Source: Epilithonimonas caeni DSM 17710 (lineage in GTDB: Bacteria > Bacteroidota > Bacteroidia > Flavobacteriales > Weeksellaceae). Taken from it: a DNA stretch of 64,000 nt. A model generated the notes under the pieces. It had not been told where the DNA came from, did not search any database, and worked only from the letters and a program-made list of their open reading frames with translations. Position numbers and translations under genes: made by a program. The stretch covers positions 177,698 to 241,697 of the forward strand of contig NZ_KE384528.1 of assembly GCF_000426465.1 (NCBI RefSeq), given 5' to 3'. This document shows positions 1,650 to 57,295 of the stretch, piece by piece. Numbering within the stretch: position 1 is the stretch's first letter; each line of letters opens with the position of its first letter.

Positions 1650-2918
1650 TTAAACAAGCATATTCAGCACATCAGGATTATCATTAAGATAAGATTCAAA
1701 ATAACCAAGGTTTTGCATTCTCTGTTTCAAGCCATTAAAATCAGAAATACTGGAAAGTTCGATGCCAACGATTGCCAGCGCAGTTTCTCTTGAATTTTTC
1801 TTGGTATATTCAAAATGGGTGATGTCGTCATTTGAACCAAGGACATTCAGTACAAAATCTTTCAGAGAACCGGGACGCTGCGGAAATTTTACCATAAAAT
1901 AATGTTTCAGACCATTGTAAAGCAAAGCGCGTTCTTTGATTTCCTCCATTCTGGTAATATCATTGTTGCTTCCGCTGACGATGCAGACCACATTTTTACC
2001 TTTAATCTGAGTGCGATATTCTTCTAAAGCTGAAATAGACAACGCTCCGGCAGGTTCCAAAACAATTGCATCTTTGTTATAGAGTTGAAGAATCGTATCA
2101 CAAATCTTCCCTTCATCCACAGGAATGCAATCTGCAAGCGCATTTCTGCAAATCTCAAAAGTCAAATCCCCTACTCTTTTTACCGCTGCTCCATCTACAA
2201 AACCATCAACTTCCTGCAATTCTGTATTGAGATTATTATCGATGGAGGTTTTCATAGAAGGTGCTCCTTTTGGTTCAACTCCAATCAACTGCGTTTCTTT
2301 TGACAATTCTTTAAAAACAGTAGAAATTCCCGAAGCCAAACCACCACCGCCAATCGGAATGAAAACAAAATCTATATTTTCTTTTTGTTGTTCTAAAATT
2401 TCCAGTGCCAAAGTCGCCTGTCCTTCAATAATCTGAACATCATCAAAAGGATGAATAAAAGCTGCTCCCGAAGTTTGCGCAAATTCCAAGGCTGCATTTT
2501 TTGAAGCATCGAAAGTATCGCCGACCAATTTGATTTCGGCAAAGTTTCCGCCGAACATTTCGACTTGTTCCAGCTTTTGTTTCGGAGTTGTCACGGGCAT
2601 AAAAATCGTTCCTTTGATTTGTAGCTGTTTACAGGAAAAAGCCACTCCCTGAGCGTGATTTCCGGCGCTTGCACAGACTATTCCGTCCGAAGTTTTGCCT
2701 TCATTGAAAAGGTTTTTGATTTTATTGTAAGCCCCGCGCAATTTATATGACCTCACAGGTTGCAGGTCTTCTCTTTTGAGAAAAATATTTGCGCTAAATT
2801 TTTCTGACAAGCGGGCATTGTATTGCAATGGTGTGTAATTCACCACATTTTCTATACTTTTTTGGGCTTCTTTTACCGCTTCCAAGGTTGGAAATATCAT
2901 CGTTTCATTCATCTTCAT
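1650..2918 (-). CDS. ilvA: Threonine ammonia-lyase (threonine deaminase), biosynthetic
   Basis: PLP enzyme converting threonine to 2-oxobutyrate, the committed step to isoleucine. PLP lysine is Lys59 in SYKLRGA; SAGNHAQG (84-91) binds the substrate carboxylate and GGGGL (190-194) holds the PLP phosphate. A C-terminal regulatory ACT-like domain occupies about 330-420. At 422 residues it is the short form with one regulatory unit, against about 514 in E. coli. The ATG at 2918 is used; an in-frame ATG two codons later is equally possible. It is the last gene of the ilv operon, 251 bp after the ABC ATPase. Allosteric Ile inhibition is expected from the family, not shown here. Confidence 0.95.
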   Translation of the reverse strand: MKMNETMIFPTLEAVKEAQKSIENVVNYTPLQYNARLSEKFSANIFLKREDLQPVRSYKLRGAYNKIKNLFNEGKTSDGIVCASAGNHAQGVAFSCKQLQIKGTIFMPVTTPKQKLEQVEMFGGNFAEIKLVGDTFDASKNAALEFAQTSGAAFIHPFDDVQIIEGQATLALEILEQQKENIDFVFIPIGGGGLASGISTVFKELSKETQLIGVEPKGAPSMKTSIDNNLNTELQEVDGFVDGAAVKRVGDLTFEICRNALADCIPVDEGKICDTILQLYNKDAIVLEPAGALSISALEEYRTQIKGKNVVCIVSGSNNDITRMEEIKERALLYNGLKHYFMVKFPQRPGSLKDFVLNVLGSNDDITHFEYTKKNSRETALAIVGIELSSISDFNGLKQRMQNLGYFESYLNDNPDVLNMLV

Positions 2919-3169: not shown

Positions 3170-4636
3170 TTAATGTTTTAATAATTCAAATGAACTATTA
3201 ATTTTCACTTTTCCGTTTTCCAGAACGAGTTTGTGACTGAGTTTTTTTGGTAATTGAGATTCAAAATGTCCAACGTAAATCAACGATTGTCCCTGGCCTG
3301 CCAAATCATCAATTACCTGATTAAAATATTGTGTCTGTTCATTGTCCATTCCCTGACAAGGCTCATCAAGAATCAAAAGCTTTGGTTTTTTAATCAATGT
3401 CCTTGCGAGTAAAGCCAAACGTTGTTTCCCAAGCGGTAAAGTATTTAACTTCTTATTTTTATCATCTTTCAAATCGAAGAAATGCAGCATCTGCTCCAAT
3501 TGTTGTTGCTGACTAAAACTCAATTTCTGAAACAACGACATCGAATCAAAAAAACCGGAAGCAATGGTTTGTCCGACATTCGCATTCATATCGAAATACC
3601 AATGCAACTCAGGCGAAATCATTCCGATTTTTTCTTTAATGTCCCAGATACTTTCACCGCTTCCCCGCTTTTGCCCGAAAAGATAAATCTCATTGACATA
3701 AGCCTGCGGATGGTCACCATTCAACAAACTGAGCAATGTTGATTTTCCCGAGCCATTGTGACCCTGCAACAGCCATTGCTCACCGGAATTGACTTCCCAA
3801 TCGATATTTCTCAGTACTTGTTTTTCACCATAAGAAATATTGATATTTTCCAGTTTGATGAGACTTTCCTGTTCGTTTTCCTGATTGTCTTGAAGGAAAA
3901 AAGGAAGCGATTTTGGCATTCTTTCTTCGCCTTTGGAAAAGTCTTTTGGAGAGTTTCTGTGAACTAATTTTCCGTTTTCTATTTCTACAAAATACTGAAC
4001 ACTTTCAGGATATTCGACATCGTTATTTATCAAAATCAATGTGACATTTTCCTGAATTAAATTATCAAAAGCCTGATTCAAAAACTGTCTCGATTTGGTA
4101 TCCAACCCTGTGTAAGGCTGGTCGATAATCAGAACCTGAGGTTTTAGCCAAAGTGCTTTCAGTAATTGTAATTTCTTGTGTTCGCCGCTTGACAATTCTA
4201 TCAATTGCTGATTTTTAAAATTTTCAAATCCAAAAGGTTCTAAATAGGATTCCAAAATTCCAAAATCAAGATTTTCTTCTTTTCCAAAATGATTCAGCTC
4301 TGCAAAAACAGTGGGTGTATCATTTTTAGCAAATTGATTATATCGCTGTTGATAATAAAAATTGCGGTCGCCTTCCAGATTAGTGAACTGAAACCAATTG
4401 GAAACGTACAGAACTTTCCTCTTCAAGTTTAAATTTTCATTAAAATTGACCTCAAATTTTCCTTCAAAATTTTTGATTTCTCCGGAAATGATTTTGGCTA
4501 AGGTTGTTTTCCCGCTTCCGCTTAATCCGCCTAACATCCAGCATTCCCCGGAAGATATTTCCCAGTCGAAATGGTTCAGTATGGGTTTATCATACTGGAA
4601 ATTCAGGTTTGAAATGTGGATGATTGGGGTTGACAT
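3170..4636 (-). CDS. Double ATP-binding-cassette protein, ModF/PhrA-like
   Basis: A 488-residue soluble protein with two complete ABC domains and no membrane segment. Domain 1: Walker A GGLSGSGKTT (36-45), signature LSSGEHKKL (from 148), Walker B IIDQP (170-174). Domain 2: Walker A GHNGSGKST (292-300), signature-like LPLGKQRL (from 400), Walker B LILDEP (421-426). The layout resembles E. coli ModF, whose function is poorly defined. Domain 1 has Gln173 where the catalytic Glu is expected, and the signature of domain 2 is not canonical, so the two ATP sites are probably unequal. It lies inside the ilv operon between ilvC and ilvA, 306 and 251 bp from them. A role in amino-acid synthesis is not evident. 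Confidence 0.85.
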   Translation of the reverse strand: MSTPIIHISNLNFQYDKPILNHFDWEISSGECWMLGGLSGSGKTTLAKIISGEIKNFEGKFEVNFNENLNLKRKVLYVSNWFQFTNLEGDRNFYYQQRYNQFAKNDTPTVFAELNHFGKEENLDFGILESYLEPFGFENFKNQQLIELSSGEHKKLQLLKALWLKPQVLIIDQPYTGLDTKSRQFLNQAFDNLIQENVTLILINNDVEYPESVQYFVEIENGKLVHRNSPKDFSKGEERMPKSLPFFLQDNQENEQESLIKLENINISYGEKQVLRNIDWEVNSGEQWLLQGHNGSGKSTLLSLLNGDHPQAYVNEIYLFGQKRGSGESIWDIKEKIGMISPELHWYFDMNANVGQTIASGFFDSMSLFQKLSFSQQQQLEQMLHFFDLKDDKNKKLNTLPLGKQRLALLARTLIKKPKLLILDEPCQGMDNEQTQYFNQVIDDLAGQGQSLIYVGHFESQLPKKLSHKLVLENGKVKINSSFELLKH

Positions 4637-4942: not shown

Positions 4943-6424
4943 TTAAACAGTTTTGATGGACTTCATAGCCGTCATTGCAGAGCGCAGTTTTCTACCGACA
5001 ATTTCTACCGGATGATTTCTCAAAACATCGTTCACATAAACCAATTGAGCGTTGTCAACCGAAGTTTTTTTGCCTTCGTTGAAGTCTTTTCCAACCAAAT
5101 CTGTATCCACCGACTTCATAAAATCTGCCAACAAAGGTTTGCAAGCCTGGTCGAACAGGTAACAGCCGTATTCTGCAGTGTCGGAAATCACACGATTCAT
5201 CTCGAACAGTTTTTTTCGTGCGATGGTATTGGCAATCAAAGGGGTTTCGTGAAGCGATTCGTAATAAGCGGATTCCGGCTTGATTCCGGCTTCAACCATT
5301 GTTTCAAAAGCCAGTTCAACACCCGCTCTGATGAAGGCCGACATCAAAAGATAATTGTCAAAATATTCCTGCTCCTCGATTTTCACATCACCTGCCGGTG
5401 TTTTTTCAAAAGCTGTTTCTCCTGTTTCTGCACGCCATTTCAAAAGGTTGGCATCACCATTTGCCCAGTCTTCCATCATTGTTTTGGAAAATTCGCCGGA
5501 GATGATATCGTCCTGGTGCTTTTGGAAAAGCGGGCGCATAATATCTTTCAGTTTTTCTGACAATTCAAAGGCTTTTAGTTTCGCAGGGTTAGAAAGTCTG
5601 TCCAGCATTCCGCTTACACCGCCGTGTTTCAAGGCTTCTGTAATGACCTCAACACCGTATTGAACCAATTTGGAAGCGTAACCTGCATCAATTCCTTTTT
5701 CGACCATTTTGTCAAACGAAAGAATAGAACCTGTCTGCAAAAGTCCGCACAAAATCGTCTGTTCTCCCATCAAATCGGACTTCACTTCTGCCACGAAAGA
5801 GGATTTCAAAACACCGGCTTTGTGACCGCCTGTTCCTACACAATATGCTTTTGCTTCTGCCCAGCCTTTTCCCTGAGGGTCATTTTCAGGATGAACGGCA
5901 ATCAGCGTCGGAACACCGAAACCTCGCAGATATTCGGCACGAACTTCGGAACCCGGGCATTTTGGAGCGACCATAATTACCGTCAAATCTTTACGAATCT
6001 GCATCCCTTCTTCCACGATATTGAAGCCGTGTGAATAGGACAATGTCGCACCCTGTTTCATCAAAGGCTGAACCGCATTGATTACCGAAGTGTGTTGCTT
6101 GTCAGGCGTTAAATTGATGACCAAATCTGCAGTGGGAATCAGTTCTTCGTAAGTTCCGACTTTGAAATTATTTTCGGTTGCGTTTTTCCACGAATCTCTC
6201 TTTTCGTCGATTGCTTCCTGGCGTAGTGCGTAAGAAACATCTAGTCCGCTGTCTCTGAGATTCAGACCTTGATTCAGCCCCTGAGCGCCGCAGCCAACCA
6301 CTACGATTTTCTTTCCTTTCAATGCAGAAACGCCATCAGAAAACTCTGAACTGTCCATAAATTCCGCCTGTCCTAACTGATGCAACTGGTCTCTGAGTGA
6401 TAAGGTATTGAAATAATTTGCCAT
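4943..6424 (-). CDS. ilvC: Ketol-acid reductoisomerase, class II (long form)
   Basis: NADPH- and Mg-dependent enzyme that rearranges and reduces acetolactate or acetohydroxybutyrate, the second common step of Val/Ile synthesis. The Rossmann fingerprint [10 protein letters not shown] is at 44-53. At 493 residues it is the long class II form, with a duplicated knotted C-terminal domain like the E. coli enzyme, rather than the roughly 330-residue class I form. It is fifth in the operon after ilvN; the 245-bp gap between them carries a heptamer array and a CACAAAG-family repeat. Repeat R1 follows directly after the stop. Confidence 0.97.
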
Positions 6425-6669: not shown

Positions 6670-7260
6670 TTACATTGTGAAAACATCGTCTCTTTTATCG
6701 AGATATTCGTTTTCAATAAGTTCGGGAGATGGTTCTCTTTTTTCAAACTCGAGGACTTTTTCGTGGATTCCTGCGCTGTTTTTGATGATAGCGATTCTTG
6801 CTCCACGCACGAATTCGATGAGTCCGTATTTGTTAAGCTCTTCAGTTAACCGGTCGATTTCTTCCCGATGTCCTGCCGTTTCAAAAACGATGTAATCCTG
6901 ACGAATCACAACTGTAGATGCGCCATACTGACGAAGCAATCGTTCTACATAGACCTTTTCTGTCACCACATTTGCGGGAACTTTGTAAAGTGCCTGTTCC
7001 TGCCAGACAATCTCATCATCTGTATTGAAATAAGCTTTCAGAATGTCGATTTGTTTTTCCAGCTGACGGCAGAGTTTTCTCACGACTTCTTCGGTTTCAT
7101 TAATGAGAATTGTGAATCTGTGAATACCTTCCACCTCGGAAGGAGACGTATTCAAACTCTCAATATTGATTTTTCTTCGTGAAAAAATCCCTGAAATTCT
7201 GCCAATTAATCCAACAGAATTTTCGGTGTATAATGTGATGGTAAATTCTTGTTTTTCCAT
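6670..7260 (-). CDS. ilvN: Acetolactate synthase small (regulatory) subunit
   Basis: Regulatory subunit that binds the IlvB catalytic subunit and confers valine feedback inhibition. The N-terminal ACT domain begins EFTITLYTENSVGLIGRISG; the continuation NIESLNTSPSEVEGIHRFTI is typical of bacteroidete IlvN. Total 196 residues with a C-terminal ACT-like half. The reading frame is open up to 7326, but I choose the ATG at 7260: the family homology starts there, and the extra 22 codons fall partly in a dispersed repeat (7309-7389). It follows ilvB by 187 bp. Confidence 0.93.
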   Translation of the reverse strand: MEKQEFTITLYTENSVGLIGRISGIFSRRKINIESLNTSPSEVEGIHRFTILINETEEVVRKLCRQLEKQIDILKAYFNTDDEIVWQEQALYKVPANVVTEKVYVERLLRQYGASTVVIRQDYIVFETAGHREEIDRLTEELNKYGLIEFVRGARIAIIKNSAGIHEKVLEFEKREPSPELIENEYLDKRDDVFTM

Positions 7261-7308
7261 TTTATGATAAGTTAAAGCTCCAAAAAGTTGGAAATATTTT
7301 GCAGATTT

Positions 7309-7389
7309 TTTAAACGCAAAGTCCACAAAGTTTTTTTATTTAATTCAATGTTTTAAAGTTCGCAAAGGCGTAAAACTTAGCAAAGTTTA
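7309..7389. repeat. CACAAAG-family dispersed repeat between ilvB and ilvN
   Basis: TAAACGCAAAGTCCACAAAG, T/A-rich spacer, AAAGTTCGCAAAGGCG, TAAAACTTAGCAAAG. Same word order as the copy at 17108. It creates a false N-terminal extension of ilvN. Confidence 0.65.
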
Positions 7390-7447: not shown

Positions 7448-9190
7448 TTATTTAAGTCTGATTTCTGATACCGAAGTCCCCTGAGCTACCATTGGAAAAA
7501 CGTTATTTTCTTTCCCAACCATTACTTCCAAAAGATAAGCTCCATCGTGATTTATCATTGTTTCCAAAGCTGTTTTGAGGTCTTTTCTTTCTGATATTTT
7601 TTGTCCATCGATGTAATAACCTTTTGCAACGGCTACAAAATCCGGGCTCGTAATATTTACAAAAGAGTAACGCCTGTCGTGGAACAGCTGTTGCCATTGT
7701 CTTACCATTCCGAGGAATTCATTGTTTAGAATCAGGATTTTGACCTTCGCTCCGAACTGCATAATGGTTCCTAATTCCTGCAACGTCATCTGGAATCCGC
7801 CATCTCCAATGATTGCAACCACTGTTTTTTCTGGTGCGCCATACCAAGCGCCGATTGCAGCCGGCAAACCAAATCCCATTGTTCCCAATCCGCCTGAGGT
7901 TACACTGGATTTAGAATTATTGAATTGAGCATATCGACACGCCACCATCTGATGCTGACCAACATCGGTTGTGATTATTGCATCGCCATTTGTTAATTCA
8001 TTCAAAACTTTGATAACCTCTCCCATTGTCATTACATCGGTTGTGGGATTCAGTTCATTTTGAATGACCTCTTTGATTTCTTCTTTTTCCAACTCACGGA
8101 ATTTTTCCAACCAAGCTGAATGGTCGTTTTCTTTGAGAAGCGCTGTCAGCATCGGAAGTGTCTTTTTACAATTTCCCCAAACCGGAACGGTGGTCTTCAC
8201 ATTTTTATCAATTTCAGCCGGGTCAATATCAAGATGAATGATTTTCGCTTGTTTCGCATACTTATCCAAACGACCTGTAACCCTATCATCGAAACGCATT
8301 CCGACCGCAATCAGAACATCGCATTCGTTGGTCATTACATTGGGTGCGTAATTGCCGTGCATTCCCAGCATTCCGACGTGTAGCTTGTGGCTGGTTGGGA
8401 GCGCACTCAATCCCATTACAGTTGCTGCCGCAGGAAGATTGATTTTTTCAATAAATGCTTTGAATTCTTCTTCGGCTTTTCCCAAAATCACCCCTTGTCC
8501 AAACAGAACAAATGGCTTTTTTGCCTGATTAATCAATTCTGCGGCCTGTTCGATATATTCATTTCTGATTTCCGGCTCCGGGCGGTAACTTCTGATATGA
8601 TTGCATTTTTTATACCCCGAATATTCGAATAATTGCAACTGGGCATTTTTGGTAATATCAATCAAAACCGGACCTGGTCGACCCGTACCTGCGATATGAA
8701 AAGCTTTGGCAATTGCTTCCGGGATTTCGGTTGCATCGGTTACCTGATAATTCCATTTGGTAACCGGCGTTGTGATATTGATGACATCGGTTTCCTGGAA
8801 AGCATCCGTTCCTAAAAGCGAGGCAAAAACCTGACCTGTAATACAAACAATCGGATTGCTGTCTATCATTGCATCCGCTAAACCTGTCACCAGATTGGTT
8901 GCTCCCGGACCACTGGTTGCAAATACAACCCCCGTTTTTCCGGAAGTTCTTGCAAATCCCTGTGCAGCGTGAATGGCACCTTGCTCGTGTCGAACCAAAA
9001 TATGTTTCAGTTTTTCGGAATAGTCGTACAAAGCATCATAAATCGGCATAATTGCGCCACCGGGATAACCGAAAACTGTATGTACATTTTCCTGCAACAG
9101 AGCTTCTAAAACGGCTTTGGAACCGGATATTTCTACTGGTTTCGGTTGCTCTAATTCTGTGTTTTCTACTTGTGAAATGGTATTATTCAT
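7448..9190 (-). CDS. ilvB: Acetolactate synthase large (catalytic) subunit
   Basis: ThDP/FAD enzyme condensing pyruvate with pyruvate or 2-oxobutyrate, the first common step for Val and Ile. The activating glutamate is Glu69 in RHEQGAIHAAQGFAR. The ThDP/Mg motif starts with GDGG at 462 and ends with the NN near 489-490, followed by GMVRQWQ. At 580 residues the length is normal and all three domains are present. It lies between ilvD (333 bp upstream) and ilvN. Confidence 0.97.
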   Translation of the reverse strand: MNNTISQVENTELEQPKPVEISGSKAVLEALLQENVHTVFGYPGGAIMPIYDALYDYSEKLKHILVRHEQGAIHAAQGFARTSGKTGVVFATSGPGATNLVTGLADAMIDSNPIVCITGQVFASLLGTDAFQETDVINITTPVTKWNYQVTDATEIPEAIAKAFHIAGTGRPGPVLIDITKNAQLQLFEYSGYKKCNHIRSYRPEPEIRNEYIEQAAELINQAKKPFVLFGQGVILGKAEEEFKAFIEKINLPAAATVMGLSALPTSHKLHVGMLGMHGNYAPNVMTNECDVLIAVGMRFDDRVTGRLDKYAKQAKIIHLDIDPAEIDKNVKTTVPVWGNCKKTLPMLTALLKENDHSAWLEKFRELEKEEIKEVIQNELNPTTDVMTMGEVIKVLNELTNGDAIITTDVGQHQMVACRYAQFNNSKSSVTSGGLGTMGFGLPAAIGAWYGAPEKTVVAIIGDGGFQMTLQELGTIMQFGAKVKILILNNEFLGMVRQWQQLFHDRRYSFVNITSPDFVAVAKGYYIDGQKISERKDLKTALETMINHDGAYLLEVMVGKENNVFPMVAQGTSVSEIRLK

Positions 9191-9215
9191 TTTAATATTT
9201 TTTCCTTAGAAAGTT

Positions 9216-9358
9216 GAACCCTTCGGGTTCTGATTTATTTGGTTTTCTTTCCATAGGTTTCACCTACGGCTACTGATATTGAATCCTTCGGATTCGTTTT
9301 GAGTTTTTTTCCTGTTTTCAAATTTCACCTCTAGATTTATATTAAATCCTTCGGATTC
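9216..9358. repeat. Three small TTCG-loop palindromes between ilvD and ilvB
   Basis: GAACCCTTCGGGTTC (9216-9230), GAATCCTTCGGATTC (9281-9295) and AAATCCTTCGGATTC (9344-9358) are near-identical mini-hairpins spaced about 65 bp apart in the 333-bp ilvD-ilvB gap. None is followed by a strong U tract in the direction of transcription, so they look like processing or stability elements or mobile mini-palindromes rather than terminators. Confidence 0.6.
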
Positions 9359-9383
9359 TAGTTAAAACATTATTTTGGAACGC

Positions 9384-9502
9384 AATACGATTGCAGCCCG
9401 GCTTGAACGGAGCTCTTTTTGCGATGACCAAATAGTTCAACTTATTGCTTCATTTTGTTAGCAAAAAAGCGGGAGTGGAAGACGGAAATAGCTGCCCCAA
9501 AT
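9384..9502 (+). repeat. Dispersed ~100-bp repeat, copy R2
   Basis: ACGATTGCAGCCCGGCTTGAACGG at the left and GGGAGTGGAAGACGG to GCTGCCCCAAAT at the right, around a variable loop. The right end faces the ilvD stop codon. Confidence 0.7.
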
Positions 9503-9523
9503 AATATCTTATTCATCATTATC

Positions 9524-11206
9524 TTACAAATCGGTGACACAACCTTGTGAGGCATCTGCTACAGATTTGGCGTATTTGTACAACACACCGCTTTTCACTT
9601 TGTATTCCGGTTGTTGGAACTCAGCCTTTCTTTTGGCGATTTCATCGTCTGACAGCAATGCGTTGATGGTATTTTTTTCGGCATCCAATTCAATCACATC
9701 TCCATCTTTAATTAAGCCAATCAATCCTCCTGCAAAAGCTTCCGGCGTGATATGACCAACAACGAAACCGTGCGTTCCTCCTGAAAACCTTCCGTCGGTA
9801 ATCAATGCGACATTTTTGCCTAAACCTGAACCCATCAAAGCGGAAGTCGGTTTCAGCATTTCCGGCATTCCGGGTGCGCCTTTTGGACCTTCATTTTTGA
9901 TTACCACGACGTTTCCTTCCTTAATTTTTTTATCTTCGATACCTTTGATGAATTCTTTTTCGCCGTCAAAAACTATTGCTGTACCTTTGAAATAAGCGCC
10001 TTCTTTTCCTGTGATTTTTGCAACAGAACCTTTCTCGGCAAGATTTCCGTACATAATTCTGATGTGTCCGGTTTCTTTGATTGGATTTTTGATATCGTGA
10101 ATGATGTTTTGCTGTCTGTCGATAATTGAAGTAACATGTTCCAGATTTTCCGCAATGGTTTTTCCAGTAACCGTCAAACAATCACCGTGAAGCAAGCCTA
10201 AATCCAATAGATATTTCATCACGGCTGGAACTCCGCCCACTTTGTGAAGGTCTTCCATCAGGTATTTACCACTTGGTTTAAGGTCGGCTAAAAATGGTGT
10301 TTCATCACTGATTTTTTGGAAATCATCTAAAGTCAAATCGTATCCGATGGATTTTGCAATGGCTATAAAATGGAGAACCGCATTGGTACTTCCACCCAGA
10401 ATCATAATCAGCCTCAAAGCATTTTCGAAAGCTTTTGGCGTCATGATATCCGATGGTTTAATGTCTTTTTCTAAAAGAATTTTAATGTAATGCCCGGCAA
10501 ACTGACATTCTTCTTTTTTTTCACGACTGAGAGCCGGATAAGACGAGGAATAAGGCAAACTCATTCCGAGTGCTTCGATTGCGGAAGCCATTGTATTGGC
10601 TGTGTACATTCCGCCACAAGCTCCTGCACTTGGACAGGAATTCTGAATCACGCCCTGGAAATCTTCTTCTGAAATTTTACCTGCGATTTTATTTCCCAAC
10701 GCTTCGAAAGCTGAAACGATATTCAAATCTTCGCCTTTGTAATGTCCCGGCGCAATACTTCCGCCATAAACCATTATAGAAGGACGATCAAGACGAGCCA
10801 TTGCCATCAGAGAACCCGGCATATTTTTGTCACAGCCCGGAACAGTAATCAATCCGTCATAATATTGTCCTGCGCAAACGGCTTCGATGGAATCTGCAAT
10901 GATGTCGCGACTTACAAGGGAATAACGCATTCCGTCGGTTCCGTTGGTCATTCCGTCGCTGATTCCGATGGTGTGGAACATTAATCCAACAAGATTTTGT
11001 TCTTTAACACCTTTTTTTACAATCTCCGCAAGACCATTGAGGTGCATATTACAGGTATTTCCGTCATAACCCATACTTGCAATTCCAATCTGTGCTTTGT
11101 CGAAATCCTCTTTTTGAAATCCAATCCCATAAAACATGGCCTGGGTTGCAGGCTGAGTCGGGTCTTTTGTGAGGGTTTTGGAATATTTGTTTAAATTTTC
11201 TGACAT
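9524..11206 (-). CDS. ilvD: Dihydroxy-acid dehydratase
   Basis: Iron-sulfur dehydratase making 2-oxoisovalerate and 3-methyl-2-oxopentanoate, the third common Val/Ile step. Three conserved cysteines, Cys52 (GNTCN), Cys125 (PGCDKNMPG) and Cys197 ([14 protein letters not shown]), are placed as in the [2Fe-2S] members of the IlvD/Edd family. The 560-residue length fits. It follows ilvE by 93 bp; that gap contains small palindromes, including GATAGGATTTCATCCTATC and GTCCCGTTGGGAC. Repeat R2 lies right after the stop. Confidence 0.97.
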
Positions 11207-11299: not shown

Positions 11300-12205
11300 T
11301 TATTCTAAAATTAAATTCTTGCTTTTTAGGTATGAATAATCCTCTTCTAATACAAAATGACGATAAGCTGTCTGAATTTTCGCTGATAAACTGTCTTCCC
11401 AGTTCAGTTTGAAAGGAATGTTATCCAAAGAATCTAATGCTACAATTTCGGCTGCTGTTCCACAGAAAAAGCCCGCATCTGTACCCTGCATTTCTTCCGG
11501 TTTGAAAAATTTTTCTTCGTAAGGGATTCCCAGATTATCACAGATTTCAAAAACTATCGCTCTGGTAATTCCCGGAAGAATACTTCCTTTTGCAGGTGTA
11601 AAAAGTTTTCCGTCTTTCTCAAAGAAGATATTGGCTCCTGAACTTTCAGCTACATTTCCGTCAGCATCCAGGACCAACGCTTCGTCAAACCCTTTATCTT
11701 TAGCTTCCTGACAAGCTAAAATCGAGTTCACATAATGACCGCTTACTTTTGCTTCGACCTTGAAAGCTTTTGGATTCGGGCGTTCAAATGAAGACGTCAT
11801 AATTCTCATTTTGTTGGCGAGATAACCGTTATCCCAATTCCAAACTTCGATTACGAGATAACTTTTTTGACCTTTTGACAAAGACATATTCGGAGAACAA
11901 ATGACAATCGGACGGATATATGCATTACTCAGATTATTAATTTCCAATAATTTGTAAGTTGCTTCTACCATTTCTTTGGTAGAATAATCAAAAGGCATCA
12001 TCATCGTTTCGGCAGATTTTCTAAGTCTGTCGTAATGTTCCTCTGCTTTGAAAATTTTAGTCCCATTAGCTGTTTTGTAAGATTTGATCCCCTCGAAAAC
12101 AGCATATCCGTAGTGTAACGATTGACCGTACAAGTCGGTCTTGGCTTCTTTTGCTTTCACATATTCCCCATCAAAGAAGAGAACACTGTTGTCATTGTAA
12201 TACAT
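11300..12205 (-). CDS. ilvE: Branched-chain amino-acid aminotransferase
   Basis: Fold-type IV PLP transaminase for the last step to Val, Ile and Leu. PLP lysine is Lys153 in EAKVSGHYVNS; AESSGANIFF (about 185-194) and the PGITR phosphate-binding loop (about 209-213) follow. 301 residues, full length. It is the first structural gene of the ilv operon; the attenuator terminator ends about 40 bp upstream of its ATG, so its expression depends on readthrough. Confidence 0.95.
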   Translation of the reverse strand: MYYNDNSVLFFDGEYVKAKEAKTDLYGQSLHYGYAVFEGIKSYKTANGTKIFKAEEHYDRLRKSAETMMMPFDYSTKEMVEATYKLLEINNLSNAYIRPIVICSPNMSLSKGQKSYLVIEVWNWDNGYLANKMRIMTSSFERPNPKAFKVEAKVSGHYVNSILACQEAKDKGFDEALVLDADGNVAESSGANIFFEKDGKLFTPAKGSILPGITRAIVFEICDNLGIPYEEKFFKPEEMQGTDAGFFCGTAAEIVALDSLDNIPFKLNWEDSLSAKIQTAYRHFVLEEDYSYLKSKNLILE

Positions 12206-12244
12206 TTTGTATCGGTTTTTATATTTATTAAATGTTTTGTTTTA

Positions 12245-12276
12245 AATAAAAAAACCATTCTCGTGATGAGAATGGT
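12245..12276 (-). terminator. Attenuator terminator of the ilv operon
   Basis: On the minus strand ACCATTCTC (12276-12268) pairs perfectly with GAGAATGGT (12262-12254) around the loop ATCAC, followed directly by seven Ts. It lies between the Ile/Val leader peptide and ilvE and is the decision point for the operon. Confidence 0.88.
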
Positions 12277-12324
12277 CTGTAGTATTTCAATTTTCAAAAA
12301 TTATCACAAGCCATCGCTCACCAC
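12263..12324 (-). promoter_or_regulatory. Antiterminator of the ilv attenuator
   Basis: Minus-strand GTGGTGAGCGATGG (12324-12311) can pair with CCATTCTCATCAC (12275-12263): 13 bp including two G-U pairs, with one bulged C. The upstream arm covers the last leader codon and the stop codon; the downstream arm removes the 5' arm and loop of the terminator. A ribosome stalled on the Ile codons leaves the upstream arm free; one at the stop codon covers it. The pairing was worked out by hand. Confidence 0.75.
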
Positions 12325-12374
12325 CGGAATCCGATAATGACAGAAATGACAATAATAATTATTGAGTTATTCAT
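12318..12374 (-). CDS. Ile/Val-rich leader peptide of the ilv operon
   Basis: An 18-codon ORF encoding MNNSIIIIVISVIIGFRW, with 7 Ile and 2 Val codons and no Leu. This composition matches the products of the operon it precedes (Ile and Val; no leu genes nearby). ATG at 12374-12372, TGA at 12320-12318. It lies about 20 nt downstream of a -7 box and upstream of mutually exclusive antiterminator and terminator hairpins. By analogy with enterobacterial ilv leaders it would sense charged tRNA-Ile and tRNA-Val through ribosome stalling. It is too short for ordinary gene calling. Expression is inferred, not shown. Confidence 0.87.
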   Translation of the reverse strand: MNNSIIIIVISVIIGFRW

Positions 12375-12393
12375 TTTCTTGTTTTGAACGGTA

Positions 12394-12401
12394 CAAATGT
12401 A
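12394..12401 (-). promoter_or_regulatory. -7 promoter box of the ilv operon
   Basis: TACATTTG matches TAnnTTTG. A start about 6-7 nt downstream would put the leader-peptide ATG within the first roughly 15 nt of the transcript. No convincing -33 TTG at usual spacing. Confidence 0.55.
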
Positions 12402-12504
12402 TAAACTAATTTCAATAAACCTTAATATTTTTGCAAAAAATTCATTTCAACAGTATCAATAATCTACAAAATATTGATTTTTATACGATATTCATCAAAA
12501 CAGA

Positions 12505-18286: not shown

Positions 18287-18303
18287 GATTGATGTAGAAA
18301 CCC

Positions 18304-18438
18304 ATAGCCCCGATTGCAGTGGAAATCATTTTTTGCGTGGGCTTCGAGAACCTCAGCCTGACAAAACGTGTTGCAAAAAGATTGCCTTCGTCGAACCACT
18401 TCGCTAGGTTTGTAACGGAAAGCGGGATTAAGCTCCTA
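18304..18438 (+). repeat. Dispersed ~100-bp repeat, copy R3, with inserts in its loop
   Basis: Begins TAGCCCCGATTGCAGTGG and ends AAGCGGGATTAAGCTCCT. The loop between the inner arms carries an extra piece at 18340-18366 that resembles the CTCAG/TGACA element in menE (62935-62961; 22 of 27 identical by eye). The GGATTAAGCTCCT end faces the GH97 stop codon. Confidence 0.7.
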
Positions 18439-57180: not shown

Positions 57181-57295
57181 ACAATCCCCTCGCATTAGCA
57201 ACAGCCTGGGTCGCGCTATCCACTATTATCTTTTGTTTTGGCCTTGCGAAATCCAATAAAAACAAAAGGATAGCCGTTTCTATCGCTATTGCACC
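57181..57295 (-). repeat. Dispersed ~100-bp repeat, copy R5
   Basis: Read on the minus strand: ATAGCGATAGAAACGGCTATCC, TTTTG, a loop, AAAAGATAATAGTGGATAGCG. The inner arms GGATAGCC/ATCCTTTTG and CAAAAGAT are inverted. The AGTGGATAGCG end faces the peptidase stop codon. Confidence 0.7.

Follow-up and report, generated by a model that had tools for sequence, protein, structure and literature searches.

The ilv locus and its leader

The window, as the whole stretch of DNA analysed here is called, comprises 64,000 nucleotides of the Epilithonimonas caeni DSM 17710 genome (contig NZ_KE384528.1, positions 177,698 to 241,697), and its minus strand carries an operon in the order ilvE-ilvD-ilvB-ilvN-ilvC-ABC ATPase-ilvA (Table 1). 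The names ilvE, ilvB, ilvN, ilvC and ilvA are presumed. The ABC-type ATPase ORF is present in one relative (L202) and gave no match in two others (L203 and L204). The 333-nt gap between ilvD and ilvB (9191-9523) contains elements resembling CCGAAGG..TTCAA, with one at 9214-9227 and another at 9279-9292; their count in the window is unremarkable, 6 of 100 shuffles reaching 2. The leuA gene lies on another contig, clustered with ORFs called leuC, leuD and leuB from their order and length.

All elements of the putative attenuator lie on the minus strand upstream of the ilvE start at 12205. The box TACATTTG fits TAnnTTTG, the Bacteroidota -7 consensus; by eye, no clear -33 box was seen upstream of it. 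Measured from the box, the leader ORF begins at 20 nt and the U tract finishes at 146 nt, which makes the interval of 14 to 160 nt given by the first-pass annotation approximate only. The leader is compact, spanning 127 nt from the ATG through the U tract. The 18-codon ORF with nine Ile or Val codons that the same annotation had described is borne out on the minus strand, the run occupying codons 5-14 (12362-12333), and so is the 13-bp antiterminator with the stop codon of the ORF in its upstream arm (12324-12311 with 12275-12263), which contains one bulged C. The 3' arm of the antiterminator constitutes most of the terminator 5' arm together with the terminator loop; the two hairpins are therefore mutually exclusive, as had been claimed. 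The overlapping terminator and its U tract were also correctly recognised, but the hairpin, previously given as 9 bp, has 10 bp when a G-U pair is counted with the nine Watson-Crick pairs, and it scored -13.4 kcal/mol (12277-12248). A third helix, absent from the earlier description, was seen beside the terminator in the minimum free energy (MFE) fold: a 1:2 hairpin, or anti-antiterminator, whose 10-bp core (12318-12340) sequesters 7 of the 14 nt of the antiterminator 5' arm and the stop codon. Three helices that exclude each other in turn (1:2, 2:3 and 3:4) can thus be drawn, strand 1 holding the Ile/Val codons and strand 2 the stop codon, with the U tract following 3:4.

The first-pass annotation also saw the lack of Leu codons as consistent with an operon that contains no leu genes. 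This argument was rejected, because the leader of a relative, G087 (L077, MNSTIIILVILVIIGFRW), has two Leu codons and precedes the same gene order, ilvE-D-B-N-C-ABC-ilvA, and a tblastn search of the leu genes of the source genome against 12.9 kb of the G087 ilv region returned no match; the absence of Leu codons is therefore not diagnostic.

Table 1. Location of the features described in the text; positions refer to the window unless a locus is named
Feature	Position	Strand	Basis
ilvA, threonine dehydratase	1650..2918	-	ORF; same order in relatives; name presumed
ABC-type ATPase ORF between ilvC and ilvA	3170..4636	-	ORF; name by eye
ilvC, ketol-acid reductoisomerase	4943..6424	-	ORF; same order in relatives; name presumed
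ilvN, acetolactate synthase small subunit	6670..7326	-	ORF; same order in relatives; name presumed
ilvB, acetolactate synthase large subunit	7448..9190	-	ORF; same order in L202, L203, L204; name presumed
ilvD, dihydroxy-acid dehydratase	9524..11206	-	PF00920 match, E 2.3e-131
ilvE, branched-chain aminotransferase, first gene controlled (predicted)	11300..12205	-	ORF; homologue searches; name presumed
Terminator U tract, T7	12248..12254	-	Sequence
Intrinsic terminator hairpin, 10 bp	12253..12277	-	Fold; alignment
Antiterminator 3' arm, CCAUUCUCAUCAC	12263..12275	-	Sequence; alignment; swap tests
1:2 (anti-antiterminator) hairpin, overlapping the Ile/Val codons	12294..12365	-	MFE fold; alignment
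Antiterminator 5' arm, GUGGUGAG(C)GAUGG, holding the leader stop codon	12311..12324	-	Sequence; alignment
Leader ORF, MNNSIIIIVISVIIGFRW, 18 codons and TGA, ATG at 12374	12318..12374	-	Sequence; relatives
-7-like promoter box, TACATTTG	12394..12401	-	Sequence
Candidate His leader, MTTQFMHHHHHFLAQTGRS, then terminator, before hisG	L119 1778-1837	+	Leader scan
Candidate Trp leader, MNNNNWWWLSNSLSGLEGLSVF, then terminator, before the first trp-cluster gene	L121 2064-2132	+	Leader scan
Candidate Thr leader, MNFTTTTTISITTTISSCRKVCL, then terminator, before thrA	L122 from 1939 (minus-strand count)	-	Leader scan
Double Ile/Val arrays in relatives	L087-L094, L096, L097, L098, L101, L103, L104, L106, L125, L134		
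Double Ile/Val arrays in relatives (continued)	L172-L183, L185-L195, L197, L198, L200, L201		

Chance expectation and detection of units

The fold of the region has a z score of -5.0, none of 200 shuffles being equally stable. For comparative work a unit was detected as a leader ORF with a run of Ile, Val or Leu codons, a downstream terminator and, in the majority of scans, pairing of the stop-codon region with the terminator 5' arm; a strict unit had eight of nine Ile/Val/Leu codons, an ATG start and pairing of -12 kcal/mol or better. Among 2000 dinucleotide shuffles of the 295-nt region, a terminator appeared in 41, an ORF with six of nine such codons in 512 and with eight of nine in 13, any complete unit in 2 and a strict unit in none. 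Applied to 113.5 kb of the source genome (the window and five further stretches; 227,008 bases counting both strands), the detector, which was designed after examples had been seen and whose thresholds vary slightly between scans, fired nine times, and only at the ilv site did the antiterminator z score, computed from mononucleotide shuffles, fall below -1.1, namely to -3.9. The usual pairing threshold of -7 kcal/mol is lenient, in that shuffled arms often reach it, and the tally of units and the swap test presented below were therefore repeated without a pairing threshold.

Conservation in close relatives

Scanning of genome contigs for ilvE gave 63 loci. From 148 genomes of the family that were searched came 30 loci, to which 13 retrieved by position were added. 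Of the 77 unique ilvE upstream regions in the contig scan and the first 30 family loci, 67 carry an Ile/Val leader with a terminator behind it. In the 78 unique upstream regions with a unit, TAnnTTTG lies at most 45 nt from the first leader start in 70, against a mean of 1.6 after shuffling.

The window was aligned with 31 relatives having an ilvE identity of at least 75%, all of which passed the leader-plus-terminator detector, so that the choice of rows is biased in favour of the terminator; L025, L026 and L029, with more than 75% ilvE identity, were excluded because they failed the detector at that stage. In these 32 sequences the antiterminator is paired in 95.6% of 410 cells, the terminator in 99.4% of 320 cells and the 1:2 hairpin in 90.7% of 889 cells (98.1% in its core), against 31 to 67% for slid controls. 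Conservation across relatives, the check that the first-pass annotation had set for itself by alignment, thus did not refute it: the leader and the hairpins are kept, with helices 91-99% paired. In one relative (L002) the leader stop codon is lost (TGA to TGG) and the ORF reads 26 codons.

Covariation in this close alignment is modest. Two terminator pairs are changed on both sides (9 of 500 shuffles have as many), with seven such cells (1 of 500), and a single antiterminator pair is so changed, its both-side pairs and pair types being not above shuffles (as high in 400 and 399 of 500, respectively); weak covariation is expected for the antiterminator because its strands serve two helices.

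That L025, L026 and L029 have lost the attenuator was considered and rejected, as a unit is present in all three, some 390-440 nt farther upstream for L025 and L026 and with a GTG start for L029. By eye, in these three loci, in L171 and in L169, whose unit stands at the distance seen in L026, the attenuator is followed by an apparent truncated copy of the beginning of ilvE, with some hundreds of nucleotides of additional sequence before the intact gene.

Antiterminator arms across distant lineages

Across lineages both arms of the antiterminator are rewritten, yet they still match each other. In 34 hand-picked representative units, which had passed the lenient pairing threshold, the own arm pairs with a mean of -14.5 kcal/mol and foreign arms with -9.3 kcal/mol, none of 10000 permutations being as good; the same loci taken without the threshold again gave -14.5 versus -9.3. 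When the test was extended to 87 units with distinct terminator arms and no pairing filter, the means were -14.2 for own and -9.4 kcal/mol for foreign arms, again with 0 of 10000 permutations. The worst case for a single unit was unit 1 of L106, where 8 of 33 foreign arms beat the own arm. Over the 161 units scored without a pairing filter the antiterminator z has a median of -3.6; it is -2 or lower in 147 of them and -1 or lower in 158. Pairing is weak, with z about -1.2 to -1.5, in unit 2 of L094, L182, L187, L189 and L193 and in unit 1 of L197. The ends of the peptides vary by lineage (GFRW, IPLRL, SHQYGG, SSPP) and the Ile/Val run is kept.

These comparisons bear on two other explanations of the site. 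Devices in which the RNA itself senses tRNA or a metabolite, such as a T-box or a branched-chain amino-acid riboswitch, share the logic of terminator and antiterminator, and Ile/Leu/Val T-boxes are common in Firmicutes; were such an RNA to control the terminator here, the ORF would be incidental, and there would be no need for an Ile/Val run that is kept while the flanking arms are rewritten. At the curated Rfam cut-offs the whole window gave three matches, none of them at 12200-12460, and with relaxed filters the best matches at the site were unrelated, with E 0.21 or worse; on this ground the presence of a T-box, a riboswitch or any other RNA of Rfam was rejected, and direct sensing by RNA appears highly improbable. 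It is just as improbable that the ORF encodes a small hydrophobic peptide that has a function of its own, with a terminator that merely ends its transcript and ilv genes read from another promoter. The residues of the peptide do form a hydrophobic run, and short peptides of membranes are known, but its end differs between lineages whereas the Ile/Val run is kept, and changes in the terminator are accompanied by changes in the arms that flank the stop codon.

The anatomy, the gene context and the comparative evidence support instead what the first-pass annotation had proposed, a device based on ribosome stalling at Ile and Val codons: the site is almost certainly a classical ribosome-mediated transcription attenuator of ilvEDBNC-ABC-ilvA that senses the supply of Ile- and Val-tRNA. 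Transcription would begin a short distance past the box at 12394, with a ribosome then entering the leader ORF. When Ile-tRNA or Val-tRNA is short, the ribosome is expected to stall at codons 5-14 and cover strand 1, leaving strand 2 free to pair with strand 3 as the 13-bp antiterminator; RNA polymerase would then read into ilvE-D-B-N-C-ABC-ilvA. With ample supply the ribosome would reach the UGA and cover strand 2, strands 3 and 4 would pair, and transcription would stop at the U tract. If there is no translation, the 1:2 hairpin may form, and termination would be permitted in this case too.

Other candidate leaders in the source genome and wider spread

The leader scan indicates that the source genome may use the same leader-peptide device for His, Trp and Thr, the candidates each consisting of a leader and a terminator (Table 1); the gene here called thrA is an 814-aa ORF with a homoserine dehydrogenase domain. 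The scan found no leader upstream of leuA or of the prephenate dehydratase gene in this genome. The cognate His, Trp and Thr leaders, along with the third helix and the position of the stop codon at the ilv site, are left unexplained if the terminator is a constitutive, partial one with hairpins unresponsive to translation; such a reading is scarcely credible. Two Flavo-1 RNA matches (RF01705) occur in the window, at 57205-57294 (minus strand) and 18302-18433 (plus strand), and an S15-Flavobacteria ribosomal protein leader (RF03161) is found in the source genome at L122 3538-3586 (minus strand).

The wider spread was sampled through 40 regions upstream of ilvD from the order and the phylum, taken as one or few per genus among the listed matches and not at random. 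By eye, 20 of the 40 have credible Ile/Val units, 3 have spurious matches only and 16 have nothing; one more, L141, has a putative Leu-rich leader. Several of the 20 have weak antiterminators, with z of -1.3 or higher in L126, L131 and L135.

Putative serial attenuators in relatives

An order-wide search covered 393 genomes, 70 of which have this type of ilvE, and 38 of the 39 new ones were fetched, G592 being left out as its ilvE match is broken by a stop. The 38 newly fetched loci have two units in 28 cases, one in 9 and none in 1. After pooling, 143 loci gave 124 unique ilvE upstream regions, a tally that omits L028 and L058 (too short) and L108 (weak ilvE match), and an Ile/Val leader with a terminator is present in 114 of the 124: one unit in 71, two in 42 and three in 1. 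Without the pairing threshold the same regions have one unit in 70, two in 44, three in 1 and none in 9, and three of the units added by dropping it (L007, L070 and L053) look spurious, with z of -0.7 or higher. The ten regions in which no unit was scored are L030, L031, L051, L053, L055, L057, L059, L062, L095 and L171; among them, L053, L055 and L057 have shorter Ile leaders, L051 has a visible but unscored Val/Ile leader, and the upstream region of L171 is incomplete as fetched. In L099, L100, L102 and L184, which were scored as single, a first leader is visible by eye.

The pooled set and two loci of the ilvD sample, L125 and L134, provide 45 arrays. These are not independent, because 31 of the 45 come from one genus-level group (g20); the remainder belong to other genera of the family or to f3. 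The triple array, L196, consists of MKNLAIIPSIIIVNVMITSAEGML (with a TTG start), MKTNSNIIIISIIIRSFE and a near copy of MKTNSNIIIISIIIRSFE, each with its own terminator, at 421, 281 and 137 nt upstream of ilvE, and the near identity of its last two units suggests a recent duplication of the whole unit. Within the 60 nt preceding the unit, a promoter box is present for the first unit of 38 of the 45 arrays and for 63 of 71 single units, and for only 3 of 46 later units; the units of an array thus most likely share one transcript, judging by these box positions. In 25 arrays (L088 and 24 similar ones) the box ends 4 nt before the ATG of the first leader, a spacing that suggests a leaderless message for this leader. 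First-unit leaders of arrays have on average 6.0 Ile, 2.7 Val and 0.4 Leu residues, and second-unit leaders 6.2 Ile, 1.9 Val and 2.7 Leu.

It is therefore probable that the ilv operon of many Flavobacteriales is guarded by two, and once three, complete gates in series on one transcript, all responding to the same signal, while the source window carries the one-gate form. Each gate would have its own leader ORF, antiterminator and terminator, and RNA polymerase would have to pass every one of them, so that leakage would multiply and the response to Ile/Val shortage would be steeper than with one gate.

Relation to known attenuators and significance

The enterobacterial ilvGMEDA, ilvBN, his, thr and trp operons are governed by ribosome-mediated attenuators. 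The leader in the window resembles these in its peptide rich in regulatory codons, the 1:2, 2:3 and 3:4 helices, the stop codon in strand 2, the U tract and the cognate operon, and differs in having no match to an Rfam leader family, an operon that starts with ilvE, a Bacteroidota-type -7 box and a compact length. Comparative prediction of leader-peptide attenuators, some of them in Bacteroidetes/Chlorobi, was reportedly made by Vitreschak et al. in 2004, a study not known to include arrays of units.

The earlier view that attenuation of this kind has little experimental support in Bacteroidota agrees with the literature found, yet transcriptome work on another flavobacterium, Flavobacterium psychrophilum, has given strong clues that amino-acid operons there are preceded by leader-peptide attenuators (PMC9723704); ilv has no occurrence in the main text of that source, and its passages on the mechanism give no leader sequences. 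In Bacteroides thetaiotaomicron, short ORFs reminiscent of such leader peptides are mentioned in PMC7366714. The Bacteroid-trp motif RF01692 appears in a list in PMC2864571 as a cis-regulatory motif in Bacteroidetes, its name implying trp, and has no match in the window or in the his, trp and thr stretches of the source genome. Passages of PMC6429828, PMC4833913 and PMC8305728 hold nothing specific to Bacteroidota leaders, the last of these, on histidine genes, having a single attenuation passage that is only general. The one-unit ilv attenuator may accordingly be regarded as of a known kind, leader-peptide attenuation having already been inferred in F. psychrophilum (PMC9723704, as far as its main text goes).

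For the arrays, the closest case found is the Salmonella mgtCBR leader, in which, according to PMC3641672, two attenuators with short ORFs stand in series and respond to ATP and proline. Those are two different signals, whereas in the ilv arrays of the relatives a single signal, Ile/Val, recurs ahead of a biosynthetic operon, once three times. No description of same-signal attenuator arrays before an amino-acid operon was recognised in searches of open-licence papers, and, as far as could be searched, the serial Ile/Val arrays are undescribed.

The proposed mechanism requires a ribosome that closely follows RNA polymerase. To our knowledge, the coupling of transcription and translation has been little tested in Bacteroidota, where Shine-Dalgarno signals are weak, and the genome of E. 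caeni would offer four natural test cases, for Ile/Val, His, Trp and Thr. The double and triple arrays, in turn, would allow a direct test of whether serial gates multiply, and of why one gate is kept in some lineages and two in others.
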